The notes beneath the pieces are model-generated. The model saw nothing but the letters and a program-made list of their open reading frames with translations, ran no database searches and had not been told where the DNA came from. From a virus: a DNA stretch of 31,616 bases. Made by a program: the position numbers and the translations under genes. Numbering within the stretch: the first letter of the stretch is position 1; each line of letters begins with the position of its first letter. This document shows, in pieces, positions 1,253 to 16,072 of the stretch. The DNA lies in IMG/VR virus record IMGVR_UViG_3300008117_000852, positions 1 through 31,616 of that record, one strand, 5' to 3'.

Positions 1253-2746
1253 TCATGTGTCGCCGTCCTCGCCCTTGCTGCCGCCAAAGTGCCGGCCAAA
1301 GCGGGCCATGTCGCTCTCAAAGGCCGCGCAGCTTTCCTTCGCCCACTCGCCCATGGTCTGGCCGTCTGGTGGCCCGGCCTCGCCAGGTATCCACACGCGG
1401 ATGGCCTGCTTGCCGTTCTGCCCCTGGTCCAGCTTCACGCTGTGGCAGCGCAGCTTGCCGCGTGCCGCCTTCTCCACGCCCTTGCTGAAGACCACCTGCG
1501 CTGGTGGAAAGCGCTCACCCGTGGCCTGGGCCCAGCGCTGAAAGGCGCGGTAGAGCTGCTCGGTGCTGCAAACCCTCAGAGGGAGGGGGAGATAACCCGC
1601 CACCCACTCACGCACGAAGCGCTCATGCGGCCGCAGGCCCAGCTCGATCAGGTCGGCCTTGGCCCGCGTCATGGGCGGGATCTGGAACTCGTCGAAGCCG
1701 TCTAGCGGCACCGTCATCAGGAAGTCGTAGAAGGCCGCGGCGCCGCCGTTGGCCAGGCACTCGGCCACGCGGGCATACAGGCCCTTCTCATCGCGCGGCG
1801 GGGTGTAGACCACCATGTAGCGGCGGTCGCCCGGCTCCAGGGCCAGAGGCTGCTGCTCGTTGCTGAGGAACACCACGTTGCAGTGGTTGGCCTCCGTGCG
1901 CAGCGGCATCATCTTGGCGTTGATCTGGATCGTCTCGCCCGTGATGAAGGCCTTGAGCTTGTTCTTGTGGTGGTACAGCTCGGCCCGCGCCACCACCTCG
2001 TCACCGATCAGAAACAGCTTCATGCTGGCCCAGTCGTTGAACTTGTCCTCCAGCTGGTCTTGCCCCACCACCAAGGCGTATTTGCCGTAAATGCCGGCCA
2101 CGATCTCGAACAGCAGGTTTTTGCCCGCGCCCTGCGGCCCGTGGAAGACCAGCGCGCTGCGCATCTTGGCGCCGGGGCGCTGCAGGGGCAGGGCCAGCCA
2201 GCGCAGCACCCAGGCGCACACCTCGGCGCAGCCCTCGGGCGTGGCCGCGCTCTCGCCGCACAGGTACTGCAGCAGCTCGATGATGGCGCGGCAGTCGCCC
2301 TTCTTCGGCTGCATCTCGAAGCCGTCGAACAGGTTGATGCAGGGCGCCTCAAGCTCGCGCCCGGGCTCGAACTGCAGCTCCTCGGGCTTGACCATGCGCC
2401 GCTCCGGGCTGTTGAGCCAGGCCTTCACGGCGTCATTCGTCATGGCCAGGCGCAGCGCGTTGACGGGCACGATGCGCCGCGTCTCGTCGTCCCACACGGT
2501 CTGCGTGCCGTAGATCAGCGCAAAGCTCTCCAGCAGCCGGCCCACCGCGCCCGGGTTGGCCATGCGGGCCTTGCGCGGGCGGCCTGGTGCAGGTGCGCGT
2601 GGGCGCTTGCCCTCCACGCCGGCCATGCGCACCAGTTGCGACAGCAGCTCATGCAGGCCCCCTCCCCCCTCGCTGGGCGCGTTTGCGCCGGCCGGTGGGG
2701 TGGGAGGTTCTTCTGCCATTCGAATGACGTTGTCAGGCTGCGACAT
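1253..2746 (-). CDS. Phage primase-helicase, DUF5906-type SF3-like ATPase
   Basis: This 497-aa protein is a phage replication helicase of the DUF5906 / virulence-associated-E-like group. After a disordered Pro/Gly-rich N-terminus (residues 1-60) comes a helical region, then a Walker A loop GPQGAGKN near residue 210. A Walker-B-like 'LFLIGDE' follows near 255, then a sensor-type 'CNVVFLSNEQQPLALEPGDRRYMV' near 300. The last ~100 residues look like a winged-helix tail ('ERFVREWVAGYLP'). The start overlaps the 3' end of the Toprim primase gene by 14 bp, so the two are expressed together and probably act as a bipartite primase/helicase on phage DNA. The iteron cluster directly follows the stop. 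Confidence 0.88.
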   Translation of the reverse strand: MSQPDNVIRMAEEPPTPPAGANAPSEGGGGLHELLSQLVRMAGVEGKRPRAPAPGRPRKARMANPGAVGRLLESFALIYGTQTVWDDETRRIVPVNALRLAMTNDAVKAWLNSPERRMVKPEELQFEPGRELEAPCINLFDGFEMQPKKGDCRAIIELLQYLCGESAATPEGCAEVCAWVLRWLALPLQRPGAKMRSALVFHGPQGAGKNLLFEIVAGIYGKYALVVGQDQLEDKFNDWASMKLFLIGDEVVARAELYHHKNKLKAFITGETIQINAKMMPLRTEANHCNVVFLSNEQQPLALEPGDRRYMVVYTPPRDEKGLYARVAECLANGGAAAFYDFLMTVPLDGFDEFQIPPMTRAKADLIELGLRPHERFVREWVAGYLPLPLRVCSTEQLYRAFQRWAQATGERFPPAQVVFSKGVEKAARGKLRCHSVKLDQGQNGKQAIRVWIPGEAGPPDGQTMGEWAKESCAAFESDMARFGRHFGGSKGEDGDT

Positions 2747-3716
2747 TCAGCGATTCCGTGAGGATTTCCGAGCCGAGTACGTAGAACGCGTGCCGCAGCT
2801 GCCGCCGCACCACGCCCAGGCCTGCACTCAAGTGCAGGTCATTGAAGTCCGTGTCCTTGGGGCCACGGGGCATGCGGGCCCAGATCGGCCAGGTGTAGTG
2901 GCAGTCCTCCACCGCACGGCTGGCCTGGTGCGCTTTCAGGCGGCCGGGGTTGCCCTCGGTGCGCCAGTCGTCGTCGGCGCAGATCAGCAGCGGGCTGTGC
3001 GGGTGCAGGCCGCGCAGCAGCTGCGCCACGTGCAGCAGGTTGCCCGCGTCCAGGCCCACGAAGACGGGCAGCTTGCGGTCCACCGCCATGCGCAGGCTCA
3101 GGCCCGTGGCCCAGCCCTCGCAGATCAGCAGCGGCTCGCCCACCACCACGTGGCCCAGGCGCAGGCAGCAGCCCGGCTTCTCGAAGCCGCGGGTGAAGCG
3201 CTTGCTGCCATCGGGGCGGATCACCTGCAGCGCCTTGAGCGCCTGGTCACGCGGCAGGTCATAGCGCAGCAGCGGGATGACGATCGAGCCGTCGCGCAGG
3301 TAACGGCAGCCCTCGGCCTGCACGGCCTTGCGCTGCAGGTAAGGCACGGGGCCGATCGGTTCACGCGCGGCGCTGGCCCACAGCTCGGCAGCGGTCATGG
3401 CGGCCTGGGCGGCGGCAGCGGCGCGGGCCTGGGCGTCGGCCTCGGCTTGCGCCTGGCGGCGGGCCTGCAGCGCCTCACGCTCGGCCTGGCTGATGCCCTG
3501 CCAGTCCACCTCCACGCGGTGGCTCTCCTGGCCGCGCCAGTTGCCAAAGCTGCCCGTCACCACAAACGTGCCGGCATCGGTGCGCACCTCGCGCAGGCGG
3601 TACCAGTGCGTCTTTTTGGGGCCAAAGCGCCGCACGCGGCCGGTCAGGTCCAGCGGCAGGGGCGGCACCTCCAGCCCTGCTGCCAGCATCTGGCCGACCA
3701 CGTCTTGCGGGTTCAC
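2733..3716 (-). CDS. Toprim-domain phage DNA primase-like protein
   Basis: This 327-aa protein combines an N-terminal region with 'HWYRLREVRTDAGTFVVTGSFGNWRG' (the beta-sheet domain common in P4-alpha/DUF7146-type primases), an Ala/Gln-rich helical linker (about 75-105) and a Toprim fold. Toprim features seen are 'LLICEGWATGLSL' (acidic Glu, near residue 200), 'PVFVGLDAGNL' and 'LLICADDD' (the Asp triad near 247), followed by 'DTDFNDLHL'. No zinc-finger domain is obvious. It starts with GTG overlapping the stop of the upstream 96-aa gene (GTGA) and overlaps the helicase by 14 bp. Likely role: synthesis of RNA primers during phage DNA replication together with the helicase. Confidence 0.85.
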   Translation of the reverse strand: MNPQDVVGQMLAAGLEVPPLPLDLTGRVRRFGPKKTHWYRLREVRTDAGTFVVTGSFGNWRGQESHRVEVDWQGISQAEREALQARRQAQAEADAQARAAAAAQAAMTAAELWASAAREPIGPVPYLQRKAVQAEGCRYLRDGSIVIPLLRYDLPRDQALKALQVIRPDGSKRFTRGFEKPGCCLRLGHVVVGEPLLICEGWATGLSLRMAVDRKLPVFVGLDAGNLLHVAQLLRGLHPHSPLLICADDDWRTEGNPGRLKAHQASRAVEDCHYTWPIWARMPRGPKDTDFNDLHLSAGLGVVRRQLRHAFYVLGSEILTESLNVAA

Positions 3717-4003
3717 GGGTTAATCACCCTCGCCAGCAGCTTGGAAGCAATGCGCTCTTCCATGTCAAATCCGTCCACGGTTGGGCCGATGCGAATGACG
3801 CGGTTGGCCTCATCGACATAGCCAAAGCCCAGCAGCGGGTCGGCGCGGTCCTTTGTCGGTGGCTCGATTCGCAGTAGCTTGACCCTGCGGCCCCTGATCG
3901 TTTCGTAGAAGTAGCCAATGCGCGCCTCAAACTGCACCACCTTGCGGCCAGTGGGCAGCGCGCGGCCGGCGGCGGCCTCTCTAGAGACTCGTTGCCCTGC
4001 CAT
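3713..4003 (-). CDS. Small hypothetical protein at head of replication operon
   Basis: A 96-aa basic protein (MAGQRVSREAAAGRALP at the start), without a recognised domain. The C-terminal half shows alternating beta-type sequence ('RVKLLRIEPPT', 'LLGFGYVDEANRVIRIG') followed by a helix. It is the first gene of the minus-strand replication block and overlaps the GTG of the primase by four bases. It lies where many phages carry a small replication or DNA-binding factor, but nothing in its sequence confirms that. Confidence 0.55.
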   Translation of the reverse strand: MAGQRVSREAAAGRALPTGRKVVQFEARIGYFYETIRGRRVKLLRIEPPTKDRADPLLGFGYVDEANRVIRIGPTVDGFDMEERIASKLLARVINP

Positions 4004-4318
4004 CAGCTCAGCCCTTGCGTGTGCTCAGTGCCCGCCCTGGCGCCTGCGCAACCATGGCGGCCATGGTTCAGGCTTGCCAGGGAGGGGGAAGAAAAAACGC
4101 GCCGCCGCGCATGGCCATGCTGCTGGGCCAGGGGCGCCCGGTGGCCATGCCCGGCAGCCGGCATCACGGCCGGCCAGCCTGGCGCAAAGGGGCAGCGACT
4201 GGCGCCTGCGAAAGCGCCGCTGCCCGCGGAGACTCGGTTGGAGATGTGAAAGGGCGGGCGCCCTGCCCGGTGTACGCTGGCGGCTCCTACACCAGACAAC
4301 GCCACCAGGAGGGCGCCC
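4004..4318. other. Gene-free gap between replication block and immunity region
   Basis: About 315 bp with open frames on both strands, but none with a believable start or protein-like composition. It is GC-rich, with scattered GGCCATGG-type short repeats near 4050-4160. The last 20 bases carry the ribosome site of the plus-strand gene at 4319. I see no terminator or tRNA here. Confidence 0.4.
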
Positions 4319-4555
4319 ATGAACGAAGACGTTTCCTTGAATCCGCAAATCAGTATCACGAACCACGATGCAGCCCGCTGGCAGGTTTCATATCGCGTGA
4401 TAGACGAAAAGGCGCCTCTGCACATCGAGTTCACTGTGCTCGTCTCCAAACCAGATGCAGAACCTTGGACGCTGCACGACATCGAAAGTGGCGCCTTCAC
4501 TGCATTGGCCGACTGGCTGGCGGTGCTGAGCTCGCGTCGATCGACGCACGAATAG
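4319..4555 (+). CDS. Small acidic hypothetical protein
   Basis: A 78-aa protein starting MNEDVSLNPQISITNHDA, with an AGGAGGG-like ribosome site seven to ten bases before the ATG. The sequence looks like a small beta-sheet fold followed by a helix ('GAFTALADWLAVLSS'). Codon use is less GC-biased than its neighbours, and it is the only plus-strand gene between the replication block and the repressor, suggesting a separately acquired or lysogeny-expressed small gene. Its 3' end overlaps the oppositely oriented gene at 4497-4679 by about 59 bp. No family is recognised. Confidence 0.55.
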   Translation: MNEDVSLNPQISITNHDAARWQVSYRVIDEKAPLHIEFTVLVSKPDAEPWTLHDIESGAFTALADWLAVLSSRRSTHE

Positions 4556-4680: not shown

Positions 4681-4947
4681 TCAAGCCTCCTGCGCCGCCA
4701 CCTGCGGCCGCGCAATGTCGATGACTGGCCGGCCGGCGGGGTGGGGCCAGGCGGGGTCTGGGATGCGGGCCCAGTGCACGTCGGGGCGTAGGGTCTCGAC
4801 GGTGACGGTGGCCTGCGTGGCGCGCTCGATGGCGGGGCAGCGCTCTTGCGGAATGCCCCGCTTGCGCCATTCGATGACAGACGGCACGCGACAACCGACC
4901 ATCCGCGCTACTGCGGTCGGACCGCCAAGTTGGTCAATCATGCTCAT
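4681..4947 (-). CDS. Cro/YdaS-like HTH regulator
   Basis: An 88-aa DNA-binding protein. Residues 1-45 carry a YdaS/Cro-type helix-turn-helix ('LGGPTAVARMVGCRVPSVIEWRKRGIPQERCPAIERAT'), followed by the family-typical 'VTVETLRPDVHWARIPDPAWP' in which the pyrimidine-tract-like Trp residues are conserved. It is transcribed divergently from the CI-like repressor across a 73-bp operator region. The promoter at 4956-4985 would place the transcript start about two bases before the ATG at 4947, giving a nearly leaderless mRNA; the third codon is also ATG. By position it is the lytic-switch Cro counterpart that starts the replication/late direction. Confidence 0.8.
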   Translation of the reverse strand: MSMIDQLGGPTAVARMVGCRVPSVIEWRKRGIPQERCPAIERATQATVTVETLRPDVHWARIPDPAWPHPAGRPVIDIARPQVAAQEA

Positions 4948-4955
4948 GGGCGCGG

Positions 4956-4985
4956 ATCATAGGTGCACCTATGTGTCTTTTGCAA
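4956..4985 (-). promoter_or_regulatory. Sigma-70 promoter for the cro-like gene
   Basis: On the minus strand, TTGCAA (4985-4980) and TATGAT (4961-4956) are separated by 18 bases and precede the Cro-like ATG. The -10 and spacer overlap the perfect operator palindrome at 4958-4973, and the -35 overlaps a second operator at 4983-4996. Repressor binding would therefore block this promoter, as in lambda PR. Confidence 0.7.
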
Positions 4986-5021
4986 GGGGCACCTAATTTG
5001 TTTTCCCTTAGCCTTGCCTAA
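4958..5021. promoter_or_regulatory. Operator cluster O1-O3 between cro-like and repressor genes
   Basis: Three related 14-mers are spaced 24-25 bp apart. O1 at 4959-4972 is ATAGGTGCACCTAT (perfect palindrome, extending to 16 bp at 4958-4973). O2 at 4983-4996 is CAAGGGGCACCTAA. O3 at 5008-5021 is TTAGCCTTGCCTAA. The spacing of about two helical turns matches cooperative repressor binding in lambdoid operators. O3 ends on the first base of the repressor start codon, which suggests autoregulation. Confidence 0.75.
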
Positions 5022-5425
5022 TGGGAGACCTTGCCACTCGGATGCAGATCGCGCTCGCTCAGAAGCGCGGCGGCTCACAGAGCGACTTGGCCAGGGCGTG
5101 CGGAGTGAAGCAGCCCTCGGTTCATGCGTGGCTTAGTGGGCGAACGAAAACGCTCAAGGCGGCCACGCTGTTAAAGGCCGCAAAGTACCTAGGAGTGCTG
5201 CCTCGTTGGCTTGCTGAAGGCTTTGGACCGATGCGCGAAGGCGAATCGCTGAGCACAGTGCTTCTGGCAAAAGAGCCGGATGCGTCTGATCTGCCAGCGT
5301 GGCCCTTCCGCTCGATCAGCCCAGTTGAGTGGCTGGCGTTGTCGCCAGAACTTCGCGCGATGGTCGAAGGCTATGCGCGCGGTCTGATGTCCTCGACCCC
5401 TTCATTGCGCGCAGCGAACCACTGA
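5021..5425 (+). CDS. CI-like HTH repressor lacking a peptidase domain
   Basis: A 134-aa protein with an N-terminal HTH of the lambda-repressor/XRE type: 'GGSQSDLARACGVKQPSVHAWLSGRTKTLKAATLLKAAKYLGV' (about residues 17-60), followed by 'LPRWLAEGFGPM'. The C-terminal ~65 residues do not show the Ala-Gly cleavage site or the Ser/Lys dyad of LexA/CI-type S24 repressors, so SOS-driven self-cleavage is not expected. The ATG at 5021 has no Shine-Dalgarno and lies at the edge of operator O3, suggesting a leaderless or autorepressed transcript. It is divergent from the Cro-like gene and flanked on both sides by matching operators, so it is the likely lysogeny repressor. Confidence 0.82.
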   Translation: MGDLATRMQIALAQKRGGSQSDLARACGVKQPSVHAWLSGRTKTLKAATLLKAAKYLGVLPRWLAEGFGPMREGESLSTVLLAKEPDASDLPAWPFRSISPVEWLALSPELRAMVEGYARGLMSSTPSLRAANH

Positions 5426-5446
5426 CGACAGGCCGCGTTCTGCGGC

Positions 5447-5472
5447 TGCCGGTTCAATACCGCCAACCGGCA
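5447..5472 (+). terminator. Hairpin after repressor gene, possible terminator
   Basis: A perfect 8-bp stem (TGCCGGTT at 5447-5454 with AACCGGCA at 5465-5472) and 10-base loop lie 22 bp after the repressor stop. There is no T-run, so it is not a canonical intrinsic terminator. Confidence 0.4.
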
Positions 5473-5609
5473 CAGTCTCAGCGCAGCGCAGGCGGGCACG
5501 TCGCCCGCATCCTTCCGTTTGCGCAAATCTGAAACGCGACGTTTAGTGCGTCATGCTTGGCGCCATTTCTGATCACCGATCGCGCACTTGTCGTTGCTCG
5601 TGAGCGAAT

Positions 5610-5651
5610 ATAGGCTTGCCTATTGACGAAACGCATAGGCGCACCTAAAGT
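5610..5651 (+). promoter_or_regulatory. Early promoter with operators O4 and O5
   Basis: TTGACG (5623-5628), a 17-base spacer and TAAAGT (5646-5651) form a good sigma-70 promoter facing the plus-strand accessory/int block. O4 at 5610-5623 (ATAGGCTTGCCTAT, inverted repeat with two-base centre) abuts the -35. O5 at 5635-5648 (ATAGGCGCACCTAA) covers the spacer and -10. O4 and O5 are 25 bp apart and match O1-O3 on the other side of the repressor gene, so this is the PL-like counterpart under the same repressor. The rest of 5426-5699 holds no gene. Confidence 0.72.
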
Positions 5652-5699
5652 CCACATCCACGCCCCAAGACAACGGCACAGCCGGGGGCGGAGGATGCG

Positions 5700-5831
5700 A
5701 TGGACAACCTGCACCCCGACCTGGCGGCCCTGGCAGCCGCCCTGGCCGCTGACGCGGCCGAGCACGCCCGCGTTGAACAAGCCACCGCCTTTGCCCGCGC
5801 CTGGGCTGCGGTGGGGGAGGCGCTGCTGTGA
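5700..5831 (+). CDS. 43-aa leader protein of the accessory operon
   Basis: A short ORF (MDNLHPDLAALAAALAADAA at the start) with a strong GGAGGA ribosome site five to ten bases before the ATG. It is the first cistron after the PL-like promoter. Its stop overlaps the GTG of the next gene (GTGA), which argues for real translation and coupling. The peptide is Ala-rich and helical; function unknown. Confidence 0.6.
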   Translation: MDNLHPDLAALAAALAADAAEHARVEQATAFARAWAAVGEALL

Positions 5832-6214
5832 GCCGCGCCCGCACAGAGCAGATCGCCAGCGTGCTGCTGGCCGTCGCCATCGGCGTGCTCTTTGCCGCCG
5901 CCGTCGTCCACTGGATTGACCTGGAAGGCATCACCAGCGGCCAGGCTGCGCACGCCGCCGGCCTGCTGGCCCTGCCCGGGCAGTGGCTGCGCCGCTACTG
6001 GGCCTGGGCGCGGCACCACGTGCGCCTGGACACCAACCGCCGGCAGCTCAAGTGGATTGAGGAAGACATCGGGCACATGGAGGCCGAGCTGGCCTTCCTG
6101 CCGCAGCACATCCGCTACCTGCGCGGCGAGGCGGCGCGGCTGCGCGTGTGCATTGCCGTGGCCGAGCGCCAGGGCCCGCAGCTGCCGCCCGCCCACACGG
6201 AGCCCCAGCCATGA
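5828..6214 (+). CDS. Membrane-anchored phage protein, unknown function
   Basis: A 128-aa protein starting at GTG. It has an N-terminal hydrophobic helix ('IASVLLAVAIGVLFAAAVVHWI', about residues 9-30), a second weakly hydrophobic stretch ('AAHAAGLLALPGQW'), then a charged helical region likely to form a coiled coil ('RRQLKWIEEDIGHMEAELAFL'). It is coupled by four-base overlaps to the genes before and after. I recognise no family. Membrane placement with a cytoplasmic coiled coil could fit a superinfection-exclusion or membrane-associated host-takeover factor, but this is speculation. Confidence 0.65.
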   Translation: MSRARTEQIASVLLAVAIGVLFAAAVVHWIDLEGITSGQAAHAAGLLALPGQWLRRYWAWARHHVRLDTNRRQLKWIEEDIGHMEAELAFLPQHIRYLRGEAARLRVCIAVAERQGPQLPPAHTEPQP

Positions 6215-6552
6215 GCGCCTGGGTGCAGGGCGTGGTGGAGAGGACCTACCGCTGCAGCAGCATCACCCCGGCCGCGCCTGGCGTGGTGCAGGCCCAGGTG
6301 CGGGTGGTGATCCGCCAGCACGCCATGGCCGGCCCGCGCGTGCACGCCCTGCTGAGCTGCGGCTATGGCGACGCAGGCGAGCAAGCCGCCACCCTGCTGC
6401 GCAAGCGCCTGAAGGCCGGCCGCGCCTGCACCGCGCAAGGCAAGTGGCTGGCGCCCCTGCAGCAGAGCATGGACCTGCTGCTGGTGGGGTGTCATGAGAT
6501 CCACACCGAAGAGTCGGTGTGTGCGGCGGTCAAAGAGACGGAGGCTGCATGA
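6211..6552 (+). CDS. Hypothetical phage early protein
   Basis: A 113-aa protein (MSAWVQGVVERTYRCSS at the start). It has a beta-rich first half with two Cys and a helical second half ('EQAATLLRKRLKAGRACTAQGKW'). Both ends are coupled by ATGA overlaps, at 6211-6214 to the membrane-anchored gene and at 6549-6552 to the methyltransferase. The constant linkage to the methyltransferase might mean a shared role in DNA modification, but no motif supports this. Confidence 0.65.
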   Translation: MSAWVQGVVERTYRCSSITPAAPGVVQAQVRVVIRQHAMAGPRVHALLSCGYGDAGEQAATLLRKRLKAGRACTAQGKWLAPLQQSMDLLLVGCHEIHTEESVCAAVKETEAA

Positions 6553-7454
6553 ATGAGCTGGCTCTTTTCGCAGGCGCTGGTGGCGGGATTCTGGGGGGGG
6601 GGATCCTTGGATGGAGAACCATCTGCGCCGTCGAATGGGAACCCTACGCCGCAAGCGTACTTGCCGCCCGACAGAATGATGGCCTTCTCCCGCCCTTCCC
6701 GGTTTGGGATGACGTTCGCACCTTTGACGGACGACCATGGCGCGGCCGTGTTGACGTCGTTTCTGGCGGCTTTCCCTGCCAGGACATCAGCGTCGCAGGC
6801 AAAGGCGCCGGCATTGACGGAGAGCGCAGCGGCATGTGGGCCCACATGGCGCGCATCGTTGGCGAGGTTCGACCCCGCTACGTCTTCGTGGAAAACAGCC
6901 CAGCGCTCCTTACTCGGGGACTCGGACGAGTGCTCGGTGATCTGGCCGCGCTCGGGTATGACTGCCGATGGACAGTGCTGGGAGCTGCCGACGTTGGAGC
7001 GCCGCATCGGAGAGACAGATTCTGGCTTGTGGCCCACGCCGATAGCCAGCGACAGTCGTGGCAGCAGCGGCCGGCCGGCTCTAGGCAAGCAGGTCCAACT
7101 GGTGGATGCGGTGAAGTGGCCCACGCCGACGGTGTGCGGCAACTACAACCGCAAGGGCGCCAGCCCGACCAGTGGGGACGGCCTAGCGACTGCGGTGCTG
7201 AAGTGCGCGACGCCCACCGCCAGGGACTGGCGGTCGGGAAAAGCCAGCCAAGCCACGATGGAGCGCAACTCGCGGCCATTGAGCGAGCAGATTGGTGGGA
7301 GTCTGAACCCGACGTGGGTCGAGTGGCTGATGGGGTGGCCGCTGGGGTGGACCGACTTAAAGCCATTGGCAACGGACAGGTTCCGCTGTGCGCCGCTACC
7401 GCATGGCGAGCGCTTGCCAATGGCCATCGTTTAACAGAGACCGAGGCCGCATGA
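6549..7454 (+). CDS. DNA (cytosine-5-)-methyltransferase
   Basis: A 301-aa C5 methyltransferase that transfers a methyl group from S-adenosylmethionine to cytosine in DNA. Visible motifs in order are: motif I 'LALFAGAGGG' (residues 4-13), motif IV 'GGFPCQDIS' with the catalytic Cys near residue 77, motif VI 'YVFVENSPALL' near 115, motif VIII 'GAPHRRDRFWLVAHA' near 155, then a variable recognition region, and motifs IX-X 'VDRLKAIGNGQVPLCAA' near 275. It is a stand-alone phage ('orphan') enzyme with no restriction endonuclease nearby, probably protecting the phage from host restriction. A G10 tract lies inside motif I (6593-6602). A second long frame runs through almost the whole gene. The stop overlaps the dNMP kinase ATG. 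Confidence 0.92.
   Translation: MNELALFAGAGGGILGGGILGWRTICAVEWEPYAASVLAARQNDGLLPPFPVWDDVRTFDGRPWRGRVDVVSGGFPCQDISVAGKGAGIDGERSGMWAHMARIVGEVRPRYVFVENSPALLTRGLGRVLGDLAALGYDCRWTVLGAADVGAPHRRDRFWLVAHADSQRQSWQQRPAGSRQAGPTGGCGEVAHADGVRQLQPQGRQPDQWGRPSDCGAEVRDAHRQGLAVGKSQPSHDGAQLAAIERADWWESEPDVGRVADGVAAGVDRLKAIGNGQVPLCAATAWRALANGHRLTETEAA
6553..7434 (+). other. Overprinted long frame inside the methyltransferase gene
   Basis: In the +1 frame relative to the methyltransferase there is an uninterrupted 293-codon ORF starting four bases after the methyltransferase ATG. Its protein is not random-looking. It contains 'FSRPSRFGMTFAPLTDD', 'SLARFDPATSSWKTAQ', several 'WPTP' boxes ('LWPTPIASD', 'KWPTPTVCG', 'CATPTARDWRSG') and 'LNPTWVEWLMGWPLGWTDL'. 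I recognise this sequence style from phage proteins annotated independently in many genomes. The last motif is encoded by the same bases as 'SEPDVGRVADGVAAGVDRL' of the methyltransferase. Either the region codes in two frames, or strong conservation of the methyltransferase makes the second frame look conserved. Translation is not shown by the sequence. Confidence 0.45.
6593..6602 (+). repeat. G10 homopolymer tract inside methyltransferase motif I
   Basis: Ten consecutive G residues encode the GGG after 'FAGAGGGIL'. Tracts of this length slip during replication. A one-base change would throw the methyltransferase out of frame about 15 codons from its start and connect its first residues to another frame. 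Confidence 0.6.
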
Positions 7455-8116
7455 ACATTCCAGACCCCATCGTCATCGGCCTGGCCGGCCACGCCGGCGC
7501 CGGCAAAGACACCGCCGCCGCGTATTTGGTGCAGCGTTACGGCTTCGTCCAGGCCGCCTTTGCGGACCCCATCCGCAGCATGGCCCTGCTGCTGCTGGAA
7601 GAAGCCGGCATTGACCACCGCTGGCTCACCGACCGCGCCTACAAAGAGCTGCGCATACCCGGCCTGGGCGTGAGCGCCCGCGCGCTGATGCAGACCATCG
7701 GCACCGAGGTGGGCCGCCACCTGCACCCCAGCATCTGGACACGCCACATGGCCCTGCGCCTGGGCCTGGCCGGCGCGGGCCTGCCCAACACCTACCCGGT
7801 GCACGACCGCATCGTCATCAGCGACGTGCGGTTTCAGAACGAGGCGCACTGGGTGCACCTGGTGGGCGGCAAGGTCATCCGCCTGCACCGCAACCAGGCC
7901 GCCGCCGTGCGCACCCACGCCAGCGAGGCCGAGCTGCTGACGCTGGACGCCGACATCGACCTGCACAACCACGGCGAGCACTTCGCCGGCCTGCACGGGC
8001 TGCTGGATGGGGCGATGGCGGAGTGTGGGGTGGAGGAGCGGGCGTGGCCAGAGCGGCAGCTGCCGGCCGACCCGGCGGCGCAGGTGGCCGTGGACAGCGA
8101 GGGAGGGCTGATCTGA
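7451..8116 (+). CDS. Deoxynucleoside monophosphate kinase (T4 gp1-like)
   Basis: This 221-aa P-loop kinase matches phage dNMP kinases, which phosphorylate dNMPs to dNDPs for phage DNA synthesis. Motif 'GLAGHAGAGKDTAAAYL' (Walker A, about residues 10-26) is followed by 'FADPIRSMA', 'LGVSARALMQTIGTEVGR' (typical of the T4 gp1 group) and 'HDRIVISDVRFQNEAHWV' around 120-137, then a lid-like Arg/His-rich segment. The start at 7451 overlaps the methyltransferase stop (ATGA), and its own stop shares bases with the next ATG (TGATG). Association with the methyltransferase suggests a nucleotide supply/DNA-modification module. Confidence 0.85.
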   Translation: MNIPDPIVIGLAGHAGAGKDTAAAYLVQRYGFVQAAFADPIRSMALLLLEEAGIDHRWLTDRAYKELRIPGLGVSARALMQTIGTEVGRHLHPSIWTRHMALRLGLAGAGLPNTYPVHDRIVISDVRFQNEAHWVHLVGGKVIRLHRNQAAAVRTHASEAELLTLDADIDLHNHGEHFAGLHGLLDGAMAECGVEERAWPERQLPADPAAQVAVDSEGGLI

Positions 8117-8625
8117 TGCCACGCACTGCGCAGCGCCCCAAGCGCAGCAAGGCTTACCGCCCCCGCCCGGTCAACCCCGAGGCCCACCTGGTGGCCATTC
8201 AGGGCGTGGCCTGGCTGAGCCGGGACGACCAGACCCTGTGGGCCCTGGCCATCGATGACGCCGTGCGCGCCGTCGCCCGCGGCCAGGCCAGCCAGGCGCA
8301 CTGGCGCGAGATCTTCGATGCGGTCAACCTGGTGGAGGAGCTGGTGCGCATGCGCAAGGCGGCTGATCCGCACGGCCTGGTGCAGACCGCGCAAGACGCC
8401 TGCGTGGCCATCTTGGACCGCCAGCGCGACACAGGCGTGCGCACCGCACGCGCCGCCGAGCTGGCCGCCCTGGACGCGCTGCGAGCGGGCTGGGTGGAGC
8501 TGATGAGCGGCATCACCCAGGCCGAGCGCTTCCAGGCCGGTGAGGCAGTAGCGCACCGCGTGCGCCGGGCTCTCACGGGCGGTGAGCCTGGTGCGCGCGT
8601 GATTCATTTGCTGGAGGCTGCGTGA
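8116..8625 (+). CDS. Hypothetical phage protein, helical
   Basis: A 169-aa, almost entirely helical protein (MPRTAQRPKRSKAYRPRPV at the start). It has a basic N-terminus and conserved-looking 'SRDDQTLWALAIDDAVRAVARGQA' and 'WREIFDAVNLVEELVRMRKAADP'. I have seen this general type beside early genes in betaproteobacterial prophages but cannot assign a function. The ATG overlaps the dNMP kinase stop, fixing this start over the longer ORF that begins at 8023. Confidence 0.7.
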   Translation: MPRTAQRPKRSKAYRPRPVNPEAHLVAIQGVAWLSRDDQTLWALAIDDAVRAVARGQASQAHWREIFDAVNLVEELVRMRKAADPHGLVQTAQDACVAILDRQRDTGVRTARAAELAALDALRAGWVELMSGITQAERFQAGEAVAHRVRRALTGGEPGARVIHLLEAA

Positions 8626-8674
8626 CGCCAAACCCATGCGGCGCTGACCTGGTCGGCACGCCCACGCGAAAGCC

Positions 8675-8986
8675 ATGAGCGTGGCCGAGCACGCGCCCAC
8701 CCAGCAGATCCGCCCGGCTCGGCGCCCTCTTGCGCCGCCCTCTGGCGTGATCGACAGCCTGCCCGAGAAGCTGCGCGCCATGGCCACCCGCGGCCACCAG
8801 GTGCGCGCCGCCGACGTGGCCAGCCTGGTGAAAGCTGCCCACGCCATCGAGGCCCAGCGGGCCATGCTGGACCACGACCTGCGCGTGTATGCGCAGCTGA
8901 TTGGCGACCTGGTGGAGACCCGCACCCAGCTGCTCAGCCTGCGCGAGTTGATGCAGGCCGGGCTGGATAGGAGGGATGAACTGTGA
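8675..8986 (+). CDS. Hypothetical phage protein
   Basis: A 103-aa protein (MSVAEHAPTQQIRPARRPLA at the start). It has a disordered N-terminal 25 residues and then helices ('SLVKAAHAIEAQRAMLDHDLRVYAQLIGDLVETRTQLLSL') that may form a coiled coil. It follows a 49-bp gap, the largest in this operon, and its stop overlaps a GTG start (GTGA). Function unknown. Confidence 0.6.
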   Translation: MSVAEHAPTQQIRPARRPLAPPSGVIDSLPEKLRAMATRGHQVRAADVASLVKAAHAIEAQRAMLDHDLRVYAQLIGDLVETRTQLLSLRELMQAGLDRRDEL

Positions 8987-9210
8987 CAACGATGATGAAA
9001 GACGACCTGCACCAGGCCATCGAGGCCCTGGAAGAGGCTGCAGCCGTGCTGACTTGGCCCGGCTTCGCCAAAGGCGCGCAGGCGCTGCGGCTACAGGTTG
9101 CGCAAAAGGAGCGCGAGGCCTGCTTTCTCCTGGCCAAAAAATACGGTGACCATTGGACGGCTGACGCCATCCTCTCCAGGATGCAGGGGAGTACACCCCA
9201 TGGCTACTGA
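8983..9210 (+). CDS. Small hypothetical phage protein
   Basis: A 75-aa helical protein read from GTG at 8983 (in-frame ATGs follow at 8992 and 8995), with a GGAGGGATGA ribosome-site region upstream. It contains 'HQAIEALEEAAAVLTWPGFAKGAQALRLQVAQKEREAC'. It overlaps the next gene by 11 bp. No family is recognised. Confidence 0.6.
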   Translation: MTTMMKDDLHQAIEALEEAAAVLTWPGFAKGAQALRLQVAQKEREACFLLAKKYGDHWTADAILSRMQGSTPHGY

Positions 9211-9559
9211 TTTGATATCCGCTGCTGAACAGGCGCTGGAGGCGTTGGAAGAGTTGAACGGCTGGCAGTCGCTCGCGCCGCCGTCGGCGTCCCAAGCTGG
9301 CAGAAAGGCGGCAATCAACCTCCGCGCCGCGCTGCAGCAGTCAAACCGAGCACAACGCATGCGGGATGCTGGCTTTACTCGCGGGCCAACTATCCGAGAA
9401 ATGTCGGAACAGAAGCCGAATTGGCGCTTGTCATGCGGCTGCCTGTCGCAATACGGCGGCATCCCTGCAGAGTGGCCATCAAAAGACCGCGAGGGCAACC
9501 CTGCGGTTGAATACGGCGTGGTATGCGAGCGGCACTGGCACGAGTACGGGGCAAAGTAA
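9200..9559 (+). CDS. Hypothetical phage protein with Cys/His-rich C-terminus
   Basis: A 119-aa protein starting MATDLISAAEQALEALEEL at 9200, with a GGGGA ribosome site. The first half is helical. The second half has 'NWRLSCGCLSQYGGIPAEWPS' and 'VVCERHWHEYG', giving three Cys and two His that could bind zinc. Base composition is slightly less GC-rich than the neighbours. A longer ORF from 9098 exists but would overlap the upstream gene extensively. Confidence 0.6.
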   Translation: MATDLISAAEQALEALEELNGWQSLAPPSASQAGRKAAINLRAALQQSNRAQRMRDAGFTRGPTIREMSEQKPNWRLSCGCLSQYGGIPAEWPSKDREGNPAVEYGVVCERHWHEYGAK

Positions 9560-9575
9560 AAGGAGAGAGCACACC

Positions 9576-9887
9576 ATGACCACCACCCAAGACCTGAGCA
9601 GCATCCAGGCGCAGATCGACGAGCTGCAGCGCAAGGCCCTCGAGCTGCGCACCAGCATGGACGACCCCGAGCTGCCCGCCGCCTGGCGCAAGCTGCAGGC
9701 CGGCGCGAACTGGTACCGCTACGTGCAGATGACGCCCGCGCAGGGCGAGCTTTTCCGCCAGGACGGCTGGGAGCCGCTCTACCGCCGCCAGCAGCGCATG
9801 GCCGAGATCAAGGCCCGCGCGCTGGCCAGAGTCCACCGCGGCGTGGCGCTGGTGCGTGCCACCGAAGCGCACCACGGGATTCACTGA
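9576..9887 (+). CDS. Hypothetical phage protein with coiled-coil start
   Basis: A 103-aa protein (MTTTQDLSSIQAQIDELQRK at the start) with a clear AGGAGAG ribosome site at 9561-9567. The first ~30 residues are a probable coiled coil. Then follows 'WRKLQAGANWYRYVQMTPAQGELFRQDGWEPLYR', a Trp/Tyr-rich region. It lies immediately upstream of the excisionase (one base between TGA and ATG). Function unknown. Confidence 0.65.
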   Translation: MTTTQDLSSIQAQIDELQRKALELRTSMDDPELPAAWRKLQAGANWYRYVQMTPAQGELFRQDGWEPLYRRQQRMAEIKARALARVHRGVALVRATEAHHGIH

Positions 9888-9888
9888 A

Positions 9889-10239
9889 ATGCTGCTGACC
9901 GCAAGCGACGTGGGCCGCCAGTTGGGCATCAGCCGCCGGGCCGTGTATGACCTGGCGTATTCTGGGCGGCTCATCTGCTACCGCGTGGGCGCCAACGACG
10001 GCGCCATGCGCTTCAGTGCCGCTGACGTGGAGACCTACCTCGCATCATGTCGATCTACTGGTCAAAGAGTGACAAGCGCTGGCGCTTTGAGTTCGACCGC
10101 TATGTTGCGGGCCGCCGACACCGACTTACACGACTGCTTCCGCAAGGCTGGAGTCAAGCTCAAGCTGACGCGTTCGACCGCACGGAAACCGCGCGCCTCT
10201 ACGGCCTTGCATCTGGCATCGCCCGCGACGAGCCCCTGA
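9889..10239 (+). CDS. Excisionase-like helix-turn-helix protein
   Basis: A 116-aa protein with an N-terminal MerR/excisionase-type winged HTH: 'LLTASDVGRQLGISRRAVYDLAYSGRLICYRVGANDGAMRFSAADVETYLASCR' (residues 2-56). Proteins of this type direct the integrase towards excision by bending DNA at the attachment site. The start at 9889 follows the previous stop by one base. The C-terminal ~60 residues ('RKPRASTALHLASPATSP' at the end) are read in a different frame across the first 193 bp of the integrase gene; this overlap is common in related prophages. An alternative is that the functional protein is only the HTH portion. Confidence 0.72.
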   Translation: MLLTASDVGRQLGISRRAVYDLAYSGRLICYRVGANDGAMRFSAADVETYLASCRSTGQRVTSAGALSSTAMLRAADTDLHDCFRKAGVKLKLTRSTARKPRASTALHLASPATSP

Positions 10240-11000
10240 TCGACCAGGCCGTCAAGCACTACCTCACCGACAAGACTGCGCTCAAGAGCTACAAGAGCGC
10301 CGCCGAGCACCTCAGCGCCATCGCCTGGGCCTGGCAGGGCCGCCCGATGAGCGAGCTGCCCGCAGTGGCCCAGGAGGTCATCAAGACCGCCGACGCCGGC
10401 CCGGCCACCCTGAAGAACCGCCTGGCGCTGCTGAAAGCCGCCTGCCGCTGGGCCTGGAAGGGCCACGGCCTCACCGACACCGACCCCACCGCCCGCATGC
10501 TGCTGCCGGCCGTGCGCAACGCCCGCAAGATCTACATCACGCGCGAGGGCATGCTCAAGGCCTGCCGCGCGTGCGGCAGCTGGCAGGCGCAGATTGCCAT
10601 CCGCGTGTGCTTCTACACCGGCATGCGCCTGGGCGAGCTGTGGAACGTGCAGGTGCAGGACAACCTGCTGGTGCTGGCCGACAGCAAGAACGGCCAGCCG
10701 CGCGTGATACCCGCGCACCCACGCATCCGCCACCTGCTCAAACACCTACCCCTGACGGGCCACAAACGCGGCGTGCAGGCCGCCTGGACGCGCGCCAAAG
10801 ACAAGGTGGGCCTGGGGGATGTGCGCTTTCACGATCTGCGCCACAGCGCGGCCAGCGAAATGGCCAACGCGGGCGTGCCGCTTTTCACCGTGGGCCAGGT
10901 TTTGGGCCACAAAAGCCCGGTCAGCACCCAGCGCTACGCGCACCTGTATGCCGACACTTTGGCCGAAGCTGTGGGCCAAATTGGCCGCAAACGGGCCTGA
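10047..11000 (+). CDS. int: Tyrosine recombinase / phage integrase
   Basis: A 317-aa tyrosine recombinase catalysing site-specific recombination between attP and a host tRNA-Ser gene. Catalytic residues are visible: Arg194 in 'FYTGMRLGELW', His262 and Arg265 in 'FHDLRHSAASEMA', His288 in 'LGHKS' and nucleophile Tyr297 in 'STQRYAHLY'. A core-binding SAM-like domain precedes it (about 60-150). The N-terminal ~50 residues are a short arm-type domain with basic and aromatic residues. It overlaps the excisionase gene, ends 80 bp before the tRNA-Ser fragment, and belongs to the accessory operon driven from the PL-like promoter. Confidence 0.93.
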   Translation: MSIYWSKSDKRWRFEFDRYVAGRRHRLTRLLPQGWSQAQADAFDRTETARLYGLASGIARDEPLIDQAVKHYLTDKTALKSYKSAAEHLSAIAWAWQGRPMSELPAVAQEVIKTADAGPATLKNRLALLKAACRWAWKGHGLTDTDPTARMLLPAVRNARKIYITREGMLKACRACGSWQAQIAIRVCFYTGMRLGELWNVQVQDNLLVLADSKNGQPRVIPAHPRIRHLLKHLPLTGHKRGVQAAWTRAKDKVGLGDVRFHDLRHSAASEMANAGVPLFTVGQVLGHKSPVSTQRYAHLYADTLAEAVGQIGRKRA

Positions 11001-12555: not shown

Positions 12556-12981
12556 TCAGAGCCCGAGCTTGGCCTTCTCAGCTCGGCCCCATGCGCGGCA
12601 GGCTTCGACGTGGTCGTTCCAGGCGGTGGTCTCGGCGCTTGGGGCGATGCGCAGCAGCTTGATTTCGTCGTTGATGCTGTACAGCTCGCGGATCTTGTCG
12701 ACCACTCGCTGGTCGATCAGGCGCACGTGTGGGCTGGCGGCGCGGATGGTGTCGCGCACGTCCACGGGCAGCGGGCTGGGCAGCGTCTCGATGCTGGGCG
12801 CGATCTGTGCGGGCTGGTCGGCCGGCAGCGTGGCGCCGTCGTCCAGCACGACGATGGTGCGGCCATCGGCCAGCGTGGCGATTTCCTGGCCCTGGCGCTG
12901 GCCAGGGGCGGATTCAGGCAGCCGCAGCTCGAAGGTGTTGATGGCGGTGATGGTTTTGCGGTAGGCGATGAGAGAGGGCAT
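12556..12981 (-). CDS. Hypothetical phage protein downstream of the DGR
   Basis: A 141-aa protein (MPSLIAYRKTITAINTFELR at the start). The N-terminal part is beta-rich with 'IATLADGRTIVVLDDGATLPADQPAQI', and the C-terminal part is helical with 'RELYSINDEIKLLRIAPSAETTAWNDHVEACRAWG'. The second half recalls tail-fibre assembly or virion-associated proteins that follow tail genes, but I cannot name the family. Its first 68 bp overlap the end of the reverse transcriptase gene in another frame, and a GGAG ribosome site precedes the ATG. Confidence 0.65.
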   Translation of the reverse strand: MPSLIAYRKTITAINTFELRLPESAPGQRQGQEIATLADGRTIVVLDDGATLPADQPAQIAPSIETLPSPLPVDVRDTIRAASPHVRLIDQRVVDKIRELYSINDEIKLLRIAPSAETTAWNDHVEACRAWGRAEKAKLGL

Positions 12982-13933
12982 GGTGGTGCTCCGTCAGGTA
13001 GTGGACGAGGGGTTGATGAGATGCCGTGTGGCGCGCGTGGCCCAGGCGTGAAACGATGGCCTGCAGACGGCCGGCGCGGGCGTCAGCGCGCACTTGGCTG
13101 ACCAGGCGCGGGCGCACAAAGCGCGCACGGGCCCAGGTGCGGTAGCCCACCCAGTTGAGGCCGCGGCGCAGGGGCTGCAGGCTGTGGTGGCTGATTTCAA
13201 GCCCCAGTAGGCCAAGGTGCTGGCGGATGCCATCCAGCCATTGCGCGGCTGCGGCGCGGCTGGGTGCCACCATCACAGCGTCGTCCATGTAGCGGCCGTA
13301 GTCCCGCACGCCCAGTTGGCGCTTGCAGAAGTGGTCCAGGCTGTTGAGGTACAGGTTGGCAAAGGTCTGCGACATCAGGTTGCCGATGGGGATGCCCGTG
13401 GCCGCTGGCCGCTGGGCAAACAGGTCCAGCAGGCGCAGGGTGTCCGGGCACTTGATGACCTGGCGCACCAGCATGGCCAGGGTCTGGCGGTCTACGCTGT
13501 AGAAGAACTTGCGCACGTCCACGTGCAGCGTCCAGGCGGTGCGCGGTGCGCGGCGCATGGCGGCTTGCAGCCAGTCGGCTGCGGCGTGGGTGCCCAGCCC
13601 CGTGCGGCAGGCAAAGCTGGTGGCGATGTAGCGGCGCTCAAACAGGGGCCCCACCACGGCGTAGACGGCGTGCTGCACCACCAGGTCGCGGAATGATGGG
13701 GCCTCGATCAGGCGGGGCTTGCGGCCGTCGTTGATCCAGAAAGCATTGACGGGCTGCGGCTGGTAGGTGCCGCTGCGCAGCTCTTCATGCAAGGCGTAGA
13801 TGTTGGCGCCCAGGTTGCGCTCAAACAGAAAGCAGCCTCGGCTGTTGCGCTTGTCTTCGCGGGCGCGCACGTAGGCCTGCATGAGGGCTTGCGGGTGCGC
13901 GAAGAGGTCAAAGAGCTGGCCGTGGCGCTTCAT
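12914..13933 (-). CDS. DGR reverse transcriptase
   Basis: This 339-aa reverse transcriptase copies the TR RNA with errors opposite adenine, producing cDNA that replaces the VR of the tail gene at 14729-16072. Motifs: 'FRDLVVQHAVYAVVGPLFERRYIATSFACRTGLGTHAA' (RT1-2 region, residues 81-118), 'LHVDVRKFFYSVD' with catalytic Asp139, the DGR-type 'GIPIGNLMSQTFANLYLN' (residues 180-197), where group II intron RTs differ, and the active site YMDD (215-218). There is no maturase, endonuclease or protease domain, as expected. The C-terminus is His/Arg-rich. The ATG at 13933 overlaps the stop of an ORF running through the TR, 161 nt after the TR end. Confidence 0.95.
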   Translation of the reverse strand: MKRHGQLFDLFAHPQALMQAYVRAREDKRNSRGCFLFERNLGANIYALHEELRSGTYQPQPVNAFWINDGRKPRLIEAPSFRDLVVQHAVYAVVGPLFERRYIATSFACRTGLGTHAAADWLQAAMRRAPRTAWTLHVDVRKFFYSVDRQTLAMLVRQVIKCPDTLRLLDLFAQRPAATGIPIGNLMSQTFANLYLNSLDHFCKRQLGVRDYGRYMDDAVMVAPSRAAAAQWLDGIRQHLGLLGLEISHHSLQPLRRGLNWVGYRTWARARFVRPRLVSQVRADARAGRLQAIVSRLGHARHTASHQPLVHYLTEHHHALSHRLPQNHHRHQHLRAAAA

Positions 13934-14215
13934 GCGTGCACCCCTTGAGGTGCCTGGGCGCCAGTGGTCACCGGTCTGCCAACACGGGCTGAGCGGGCTA
14001 CTAAAGGGCGCCTGGGCGGCAGATTTCGGCGCCAGCCGCGACGGGGGCTCCCTCTGCGCCGGTCGGCCAATGCCGCATGTGGCAAGCCAGGCTCAGAGTC
14101 GGCACGCAACCCGATGTTGTTGTTCGAGTTGGCGCGGGAGTTGTTCAAGTTCAGCGCCCAGACACCGGCATTGCTGCCGTTGTTCCAGTTGCCGCCAGAG
14201 ATCACACAGAGCATG
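13934..14215 (-). ncRNA. DGR RNA: template repeat plus spacer up to the RT gene
   Basis: Between the avd stop and the RT start lies a 282-bp segment containing TR and a 161-nt spacer. In the Bordetella phage BPP-1 system the RNA for this interval is the template that the RT/Avd complex binds. The same order here (avd, TR, spacer, rt) supports the assignment. An ORF of 100 codons (14232-13930) also spans it; its TR part is Asn-rich because of AAC codons and its remainder is Arg/Pro-rich, so I take it as non-coding. RNA ends are not known. Confidence 0.7.
14095..14211 (-). repeat. DGR template repeat (TR)
   Basis: This 117-nt segment aligns without gaps to 14738-14854. Seventeen positions differ and all seventeen are A in the TR coding strand (T on the plus strand); the other 91 non-A positions are identical. 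Changes in VR are A to G (7), A to T (7) and A to C (3). The TR reads in frame as 'CVISGGNWNNGSNAGVWALN' followed by further Asn codons: AAC codons placed where diversity is wanted, flanking fixed Trp, Gly and Leu codons. Confidence 0.97.
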
Positions 14216-14692
14216 TCAAGCCCCCACCGCACCGGCAGCCAGGCTGCCGGATTCTTCTGCCGGCACCGTGGCCGGCGCGCCCTGGGCTTGTGGCCCGGGC
14301 TGCATTTCCGTCTTGAGCCAGCCGCCGATCATGCGGCCCAGCTCGTCCACCAGGCGCAAGATGACCAGCGCCCGGTGCTCGCCGGGGCGTTCTGGGTCTT
14401 GCTTGCCCCGGCTGAAGTTGAACAGCCCCAGCTCGTGGGCCAGCAACAGCAGCATGCGCAGTTGCTCGTGCCGCACATCCAGCTGGGTGAGCGTGGTGCG
14501 CTTGTGGTAGCGCTTTTGCGCCTCCGTCACCAGGTTGTAGACGTCCACGTAGGCCGCGCGGATCTGCTGCGTCAGCGCGTACTTATGGCACGAAGGAAAG
14601 TGCGCCAGATACATCTCCAGCTGCGCGGCAAACAGCACCAGCTTGCGGTGCAAGCCGGCCTGTGCATGGATGCTGCGGTTCTGATGCGTCAT
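14216..14692 (-). CDS. avd: DGR accessory variability determinant (Avd)
   Basis: A 158-aa helical protein of the Avd / four-helix-bundle family (related to proteins of the 23S rRNA intervening-sequence type), which forms a basic pentamer that binds the RT and is needed for mutagenic homing. Characteristic parts are 'FAAQLEMYLAHFPSCHKYALTQQIRAAYVDVYNLVTEAQKRYHKRTTL' (about residues 21-68) and 'LRMLLLLAHELGLFNFSRG' (about 78-96), then 'ALVILRLVDELGRMIGGWLK'. The last ~30 residues are a disordered Pro/Ala/Gly tail longer than usual. It lies between VR and TR and its stop is five bases from the TR. Confidence 0.9.
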   Translation of the reverse strand: MTHQNRSIHAQAGLHRKLVLFAAQLEMYLAHFPSCHKYALTQQIRAAYVDVYNLVTEAQKRYHKRTTLTQLDVRHEQLRMLLLLAHELGLFNFSRGKQDPERPGEHRALVILRLVDELGRMIGGWLKTEMQPGPQAQGAPATVPAEESGSLAAGAVGA

Positions 14693-14699
14693 GGCATGA

Positions 14700-14721
14700 G
14701 CCCGGCGCTTTCGCGCCAGGC
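14700..14721 (-). promoter_or_regulatory. GAAA-loop hairpin downstream of VR (DGR target-recognition element)
   Basis: On the coding strand GGCGC (14717-14713), loop GAAA (14712-14709) and GCGCC (14708-14704) form a perfect 5-bp stem. After one C/A mismatch three further pairs extend it to 14700 and 14721. It starts eight bases after the target gene stop. Hairpin/cruciform elements with a GRNA tetraloop just downstream of VR are required for efficient homing in the BPP-1 DGR, and GAAA fits GRNA. It is absent next to the TR, which matches the one-way transfer from TR to VR. Confidence 0.78.
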
Positions 14722-14728
14722 GTCAGAG

Positions 14729-16072
14729 TTACAGGTAAGAGGCGGCACGCAACCCGACGCTGTCGGCCGAGAAGGCGCGGGAGTAGTCCAAGGTCAGCGC
14801 CCAGACACCGGCACCGCTGCCGTAGTACCAGAAGCCGCCAGAGATCACACAGAGGTCTGTCGTGCGCGCGTCGTAGAGGTAGTCGTTGCCGAACTGGTTG
14901 CTGCCGCCCACACCGCCCATCAGCGGGATTCCCAGGCCGGCAAAGCCCCAGGCGGTGCCGCTGGTGGCGGCGCTGAGCACTTGTGCCGCGTTGCCGAACA
15001 CCTTGTTGCTGGCCGAGTTGGTCAGGCTTTCGTAGGTGGCGCCAATGCTGTCGTACAGCGCGGCCAGGCCGGTGGCGCCCCAGGCGTCAGTGGCCAGGGT
15101 GGTGCCGCCGGTGATAGTGGCCACGTCTGCAGCGGTCTTCAGCACATAGAAGTTGGTGCCGTTGGAGGTGAGGCCCAGCTCGGTCTCCCAGACCACGCCG
15201 TTGAGGTCTGCGATGCCGCAGAGTTGGCCGTTGTGCGTAGTGCGCGCCATGAAGTTGGCGCTGCCGGTCTTGCCGCAGGCGTAGGTGCCGTTGCCGTCGT
15301 CCACAAAGGCGATGGCACCGTCATTGGAGTCGCCCAGCGCGTTGTTGTTGCAGCCCTTGGGGAAGTTGGTGCTGCCGGCGCTGTACCAGGCGCAGTAGGT
15401 GGTGCCGGTGGCGGCTGAGCCGTGCGCATTGGCCAGCAAGGCCAGGGCGCCGCGGATGAACCGGGTGTTGCAGAAGAAGCGGCTGCCGCGCGTCTTGGCT
15501 GCGGCAATGGCGCCGGCCAGGTTGTTGGATGGGGCGCCGGTCAGGCTGGCGAAGGTGGCCGTGGTCAGGCTGCCGCGCTGTGCGCTGGTGATGACCACGC
15601 CGTTTTTGAGGCTGGACGCCACCCCGCCGTTGTTGCTGGCCAGGTACTTGTCCACGAACACACCCTGGCGGATGGCGCCGCCGTTGTAGAACGCGCGGTG
15701 CAGGGCGTAGCCCGCAGCGTTGGCATCGGCCACGCTGGCCCAGTGGCTGAACGGCTTGATGTCCACCACATTGATGGCGCCGCCGTTGCTGCCGGTGCCG
15801 TAGCGGTAGTAGAAGGCCGGGATGTAGACCATCACCGAGCCGTCGCTGTACTGGTAGTTGCCGTAGTTCTCGCTGGCGGGGTCTTCCGTGCCGTAGAGCT
15901 TGGCAAAGCCGGCGGGTACTTCGGGCGCGATGCCCACGCCAAAGCCCTGCTGGCCGGCCACACCGATGTGGTTGACCGTGCCGGCGCCGCCAGTGCCGAT
16001 GCGGATGCCGTTGGGGAAGGCGACGGCCGAACCGTCAGGCGTTTGAATGGTGCGGGTGACGAGAGTGCTCAT
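14729..16072 (-). CDS. DGR target: tail receptor-binding protein with C-type-lectin/FGE-like fold
   Basis: A 447-aa virion protein. Residues 1-60 form a short beta-type start ('LVTRTIQTPDGSAVAFPNGI'). The middle and C-terminus resemble the FGE/C-type-lectin fold used by DGR targets: 'FFCNTRFIRGALALLANAHGSAA', 'GIADLNGVVWETELGL', 'GFAGLGIPLMGGVGGSNQFGNDYLYD', ending 'CVISGGFWYYGSGAGVWALT...GLRAASYL'. Residues 407-445 are the variable repeat. The varied positions compared with TR are mostly Asn changed to Phe, Tyr, Gly, Thr, Asp, Ala or Ser. Position after the tape measure and distal tail genes suggests the tail tip. The start overlaps the stop of the upstream tail gene (ATGA). Confidence 0.93.
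   Translation of the reverse strand: MSTLVTRTIQTPDGSAVAFPNGIRIGTGGAGTVNHIGVAGQQGFGVGIAPEVPAGFAKLYGTEDPASENYGNYQYSDGSVMVYIPAFYYRYGTGSNGGAINVVDIKPFSHWASVADANAAGYALHRAFYNGGAIRQGVFVDKYLASNNGGVASSLKNGVVITSAQRGSLTTATFASLTGAPSNNLAGAIAAAKTRGSRFFCNTRFIRGALALLANAHGSAATGTTYCAWYSAGSTNFPKGCNNNALGDSNDGAIAFVDDGNGTYACGKTGSANFMARTTHNGQLCGIADLNGVVWETELGLTSNGTNFYVLKTAADVATITGGTTLATDAWGATGLAALYDSIGATYESLTNSASNKVFGNAAQVLSAATSGTAWGFAGLGIPLMGGVGGSNQFGNDYLYDARTTDLCVISGGFWYYGSGAGVWALTLDYSRAFSADSVGLRAASYL
14738..14854 (-). repeat. DGR variable repeat (VR)
   Basis: Recipient copy of the TR at the 3' end of the target gene, ending seven bases before the end of the stop codon. It differs from the TR at 17 of 26 template adenines and nowhere else. 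The last stretch GGGTTGCGTGCCG is shared and would include the initiation-of-mutagenic-homology sequence; beyond CTCT the copies diverge. Confidence 0.97.

Follow-up and report, generated by a model that had tools for sequence, protein, structure and literature searches.

A short repressor between two clusters of operator-like palindromes: a probable lambda-like immunity region of a known type in a temperate siphophage

The stretch of DNA analysed here (the window) is the whole of the IMG/VR record IMGVR_UViG_3300008117_000852, 31,616 bp in length, and the genome may be incomplete. By its gene content the record is a temperate siphophage, in which the minus strand carries the head and tail genes. 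A gene encoding a 134-aa repressor is found on the plus strand (5021..5425). Divergent from it lies a gene for an 88-aa Cro-like protein (4681..4947, minus strand), which matches the Pfam families YdaS_toxin (5e-18) and P22_Cro (1.5e-7) and shares 54% identity with E. coli YdaS in a 56-aa alignment. Leftward replication genes follow downstream of cro (1253..3716, minus strand) and encode a primase (2733-3716) and a helicase-like protein (1253-2746). On the other side of the repressor gene, rightward early genes are found at 5700..11000 on the plus strand, the extent of this operon being presumed. They encode proteins of unknown function of 128 and 113 aa, a DNA methyltransferase (6553-7434), and an integrase (10047-11000). 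Two plus-strand ORFs of 134 and 78 aa (3918-4555) are located between cro and the primase gene and oppose the leftward transcript; the 78-aa ORF comes with an AGGAGG, and a search for family matches to the two gave none. When genome contigs were scanned with a profile of the repressor alignment, zero relatives were obtained. The scan with Cro gave one MAG only, Rubrivivax sp. SCN 71-131, and this single match thus at most suggests the host.

The repressor is composed of an HTH of the 434/P22 type (residues 1-75) and a short C-terminal helical module (about residues 92-127). The Pfam domain HTH_3 is present, and Peptidase_S24 was sought in the protein with no match, so that the self-cleaving C-terminal domain of the lambda-type repressors is not found here. 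Judged by its domain content the repressor, short and with an HTH only, would be non-cleavable, and with a divergently encoded Cro of the YdaS family it shares these two features with the Rac/CP-933P type. The AlphaFold2 model (mean pLDDT 83) displays a five-helix HTH, confidently predicted, at residues 1-70, whereas the pair of helices in the C-terminal part is predicted less well, and the modelled HTH fold resembles those of 434 Cro and P22 c2. Foldseek with this model returned matches at the level of the HTH only, none of them with E < 0.001. The C-terminal module, WPF..L(S/T)PxxRxxVEG, recurs on other HTHs at the loci L012, L016, L019, L021, and L088 according to an HMM that was built from these same sequences. 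Independently of the HMM, a BLAST comparison of the C-termini from the window and from L019 gave 32% identity over 56 aa (E 3e-7). The HMM did not retrieve RacR. Comparison of these proteins suggests that DNA-binding and oligomerisation modules have likely been exchanged among repressors. Peptidase_S24 was found in 18 of 33 sampled repressors and was absent from 15, the repressor of the window included.

Five putative operators of 14 bp are found around the repressor gene at the places where the earlier note had put them, and its start-to-start spacings are also correct, being 24 bp for O1-O2, 25 bp for O2-O3, and 25 bp for O4-O5. O1 (4959-4972, ATAGGTGCACCTAT) is a perfect palindrome over the -10 of the PR-like promoter described below, and is conserved at locus L005. 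O2 (4983-4996, CAAGGGGCACCTAA) overlaps the -35 of the same promoter as well as the position where the -35 of the repressor promoter would be expected, and O3 (5008-5021, TTAGCCTTGCCTAA) overlaps the repressor start codon. On the far side of the gene, O4 (5610-5623, ATAGGCTTGCCTAT) runs into the -35 of the PL-like promoter, while O5 (5635-5648, ATAGGCGCACCTAA) lies within its spacer and -10. It had been claimed that all five share the form ATAGGY-NN-RCCTAW. This is true of O1, O4, and O5, which are exact TAGG-N4-CCTA palindromes, but not of O2 and O3, which read CAAGGG-GCACCTAA and TTAGCC-TTGCCTAA and have degenerate left halves. Three exact TAGGN4CCTA sites are observed, whereas 0.05 are expected from shuffled sequences, none of which had more than one in 300 shuffles. 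When one mismatch is tolerated the count is five against 2.6 in the shuffles, and O2 and O3 are therefore not significant individually. These two gain support from their even spacing and from being kept in L005, and the half-degenerate form of O2 is seen in both L005 and L070. A search of the 31.6-kb record for more copies gave no other good one, the single additional site, at 18606, having two mismatches.

A consensus scan of positions 4900-5750 gave two sigma-70-like matches only, and these are the two promoters that had been proposed. The PR-like promoter, TTGCAA-N18-TATGAT (4985-4956, minus strand), would drive cro and the leftward replication genes, and the PL-like promoter, TTGACG-N17-TAAAGT (5623-5651, plus strand), faces the rightward genes. 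Both are overlapped by operators. The same scan gave no match for a -35 of the repressor promoter, which is therefore probably weak. Its putative -10, TAGCCT (5009..5014, plus strand), is situated 6 bases before the ATG, and from this position a leaderless repressor mRNA starting at 5021 is predicted; TANNNT is found 6-7 bases ahead of the ATG in most of the relatives compared. Since O3 supplies this probable -10 and also overlaps the start codon, as had been noticed earlier and as the coordinates (5008-5021 and 5021) bear out, autoregulation of the repressor through O3 is likely. The centre of O2 is found at about -31.5 from the predicted start of the repressor transcript. This is closer than OR2 of lambda, which is centred at -42, and simple contact activation by O2 is therefore doubtful. 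Two features persist across operator specificities at the loci L010, L011, L012, L013, and L019: the CTA-TTG junction where the first OL site meets the -35, and the TA that the -10 has in common with the last OL site.

The repressor of L005 is 74% identical to that of the window, and all five sites are kept (at 4705/4729/4754 and 5362/5387) with several base changes that preserve the palindrome. Its PL reads TTGACA-N17-TAAAGT where the window has TTGACG, while the stretch just 5' of O4 is poorly conserved between the two. A second contig, L004 (IMGVR_UViG_3300031857_015780), has an identical repressor and the same five sites. A blind search of IMG/VR was performed with a gene-free pattern for the O4-promoter-O5 signature, TAGGNNNNCCTATTGAC-N8-13-TAGGNNNNCCTA. 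It hit at least 119 stretches, while a control pattern of matched composition, its half-site scrambled to TGAG/CTCA, hit 6. Among the matches listed, 86 have a homologous HTH repressor upstream on the same strand. Because the records are redundant, with one cluster accounting for 25 of 58 distinct repressors, those among the matches listed were grouped at 70% identity into 28 clusters. In 16 of these clusters a set of three OR sites, spaced 24-26 bp, was recognised at the start of the repressor, and in the other 12 no such set was found, again among the matches listed. In many relatives, as in the window, the beginning of the third site precedes the start codon by about 12 bases, while in the Acinetobacter class the distance is about 31 bases. 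A signature with TAGG-N5-CCTA is also widespread (at least 120 stretches). An operator-TTGAC-operator signature can be used to locate immunity regions in viral contigs that lack annotation. A symmetric version, with the signature occurring twice in opposite orientations 0.7-1.4 kb apart, is seen in L045, L046, and L136. The E. coli phages 4A7, Perceval, and PhiR30_1, which were picked up by tblastn, have no operator series, and 40% similarity in the HTH is therefore insufficient for shared operators.

Relatives of the Cro protein are encoded at 20 loci, mostly beside different repressors. At L012 the right-operon proteins are 98% and 91% identical to those of the window and Cro is 73% identical, yet the repressor is a different one, and both flanks carry operators of the form TAGC-N3-GCTA. 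Sites of this type are spaced 24, 25, and 25 bp at L019, and L010 and L013 have TTAGC-N4-GCTAA-like sites. A different repressor is thus accompanied by different operators within an unchanged layout, and this comparison of sequences is the strongest evidence that O1-O5 would be the operators of the 134-aa repressor. In the flank 3' of the repressor no matching operator was found within 330 bp in L014 and L016, and a de novo operator search with the chosen settings gave nothing above shuffles in L009, L011, L014, L016, L018, L020, L021, and L026, where operators may nonetheless be present. As in lambda, the repressor gene is flanked by matching operators over divergent promoters, and these operators change together with the repressor on both flanks. 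Phylogenetic footprinting and the repressor swaps lend strong support to the idea that two clusters around a short repressor follow the logic of OR and OL. The locus is very probably an immunity region, in which the 134-aa repressor bound at O1-O5 would shut PR and PL and limit its own mRNA, while the YdaS-type Cro would compete with it.

The palindromes could instead primarily be sites for the YdaS-like Cro, or serve Cro and repressor equally, the 134-aa protein being one reader among others. The footprints of YdaS and PaaR2 overlap in CP-933P (see below), and relatives with related Cro proteins retain the CTA/TAG core although their repressors differ. However, the inner bases and the length of the centre vary with the repressor even when Cro is still 56-88% identical, and TAGG-N4-CCTA adjoins homologous repressor HTHs in many phages, so that this explanation is unlikely. 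It is more improbable still that the conserved TA and CTA belong to the promoters, to the -10 and -35, and that the similarity in part reflects promoter constraint. Each of the three -10 boxes does begin with a TA from one of the sites, which is the last TA in O1 and O5 and the first one in O3, and O4 enters a -35, but this constraint cannot explain the palindromic opposite half-sites or their change together with the repressor, and the GG/CC letters are mostly outside the hexamers. Chance palindromes in a GC-rich phage have a negligible probability. It is not unusual for a shuffled window to contain five one-mismatch sites, but the exact sites, the regular spacing, the conservation, and the blind database matches speak against chance, which is excluded for O1, O4, and O5.

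In lambda three operators are found at PR/PRM and another set at PL, with the repressor gene between them. The window differs from lambda in that the repressor is without the cleavable C-terminal domain and the sites are 14-bp palindromes, and also in that PR and PRM are closer and PL has two sites instead of three. The repressor mRNA of lambda is leaderless (PMC8630535). The PaaR2/YdaS/YdaT system of CP-933P from E. coli O157:H7 has been tested experimentally, both by footprints and for regulation at OR and OL (PMC8630535). Like the window it has a short repressor without the motif for RecA-dependent cleavage by a peptidase, a divergent YdaS acting as Cro, operators that cover PR and PRM, and a further set at a PL on the far side; its repressor mRNA is leaderless, which for the window is a prediction (PMC8630535). 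It differs from the window in having operators with a GTTTAGTAA-type consensus, three of them in OL, and a repressor that belongs to a toxin-antitoxin operon (PMC8630535). At low concentration PaaR2 activates its own promoter, and the protein forms octamers (PMC8630535).

A similar arrangement is seen in the Rac prophage of E. coli K-12. The excerpts used of the Rac literature describe three TTAGGC/GCCTAA repeats between racR and ydaS, binding of RacR to this intergenic region in three complexes, and octamers of RacR, and list ydaG/ydaF among the genes that are up 40-70 fold when C protein interferes with RacR (PMC5700373, PMC11014345). In the MG1655 sequence three TAGG-N5-CCTA sites are read in the intergenic region. 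Beyond racR, two more TAGG-N5-CCTA sites 25 bp apart, with CCTATTGACA, face ydaG/ydaF (L152 6600-6700, which is NC_000913.3 about 1419600-1419700). The same excerpts contain no description of this OL-like pair before ydaG/ydaF (PMC5700373, PMC11014345). The much-studied Rac prophage thus shows five operator-like sites in the 3+2 layout of the window around the repressor gene, and the distance from OR1 to OL1 is 667 bp in Rac and 651 bp in the window. The centre of the Rac operators is N5 instead of N4, one base longer, and clear homology between RacR and the window repressor was not found, the best alignment covering 20 aa with a pairwise E of 0.004. The lambda-like reading of the window is well supported, though the switch type is already known, since CP-933P and Rac carry published or matching equivalents. 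The further implication of the earlier note, that the lambda logic is re-created in an unusual way with an unrelated C-terminus, is unsupported; the layout is this widespread, nearly half of the sampled repressors have no peptidase, and PaaR2/YdaS of CP-933P and RacR/YdaS of Rac are direct precedents.

Acinetobacter phage vB_AbaSI_1 and Pseudomonas phage F_TK1718sp/PAK have HTHs homologous to that of the window (46-51%) and TAGG-N4-CCTA sites at 24-25 bp on both flanks. Unlike the window repressor, the CI of vB_AbaSI_1 carries the annotation S24 family peptidase, and that of F_TK1718sp likewise exceeds 134 aa. The repressor mRNA of the Acinetobacter phage has a leader and a likely ribosome-binding site, which also differs from the window. 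It is possible, though doubtful, that TAGG-N4-CCTA marks an operator/promoter cassette common to many otherwise unrelated phages, where the HTH is kept and C-termini are exchanged. Its users would be Acinetobacter and Pseudomonas phages and probably Burkholderiales ones, with either S24 or short non-cleavable ends. Were this true, phages with different routes of induction would be cross-immune through mutual recognition of operators. The switch in the window provides a clean and testable case of a short repressor outside the enterobacteria, and could serve in the study of cross-immunity and of how operator specificity evolves.

In the proposed immunity region the perfect palindromes O1 and O4 would probably be filled first. 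Repressor at O1 and O2 would close PR, and with it cro and replication, while repressor at O4 and O5 would close PL and the rightward methyltransferase-integrase genes. O3, which bears the probable -10 and the start codon, would let the repressor limit its own leaderless mRNA, and Cro competing for the same sites would lead to the lytic state. Cooperativity or looping between OR and OL across 651 bp might contribute. Since the repressor is without S24, induction must differ from that of lambda, and might, in place of RecA-driven self-cleavage, depend for instance on an antirepressor. No exact LexA box CTGT-N8-ACAG, a form which may not be that of the host, was found in this possibly incomplete contig, one-mismatch versions were below chance, and the window yielded neither an antirepressor gene nor a gene under the control of a LexA box. 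In the Gifsy-type phages LexA-controlled antirepressors act on short repressors; the Gifsy repressor is, like that of the window, short (136 aa) and without a cleavage motif (PMC3121763).

A diversity-generating retroelement is found in another part of the window (12914-14854), with the reverse transcriptase encoded at 12914-13933 on the minus strand. Its repeats are 117 nt long (14095-14211 and 14738-14854), and a tail-protein ORF (14729-16072) has the second copy at its 3' end. All 17 mismatches between the two repeats, read on the minus strand, sit at an A of the first copy.
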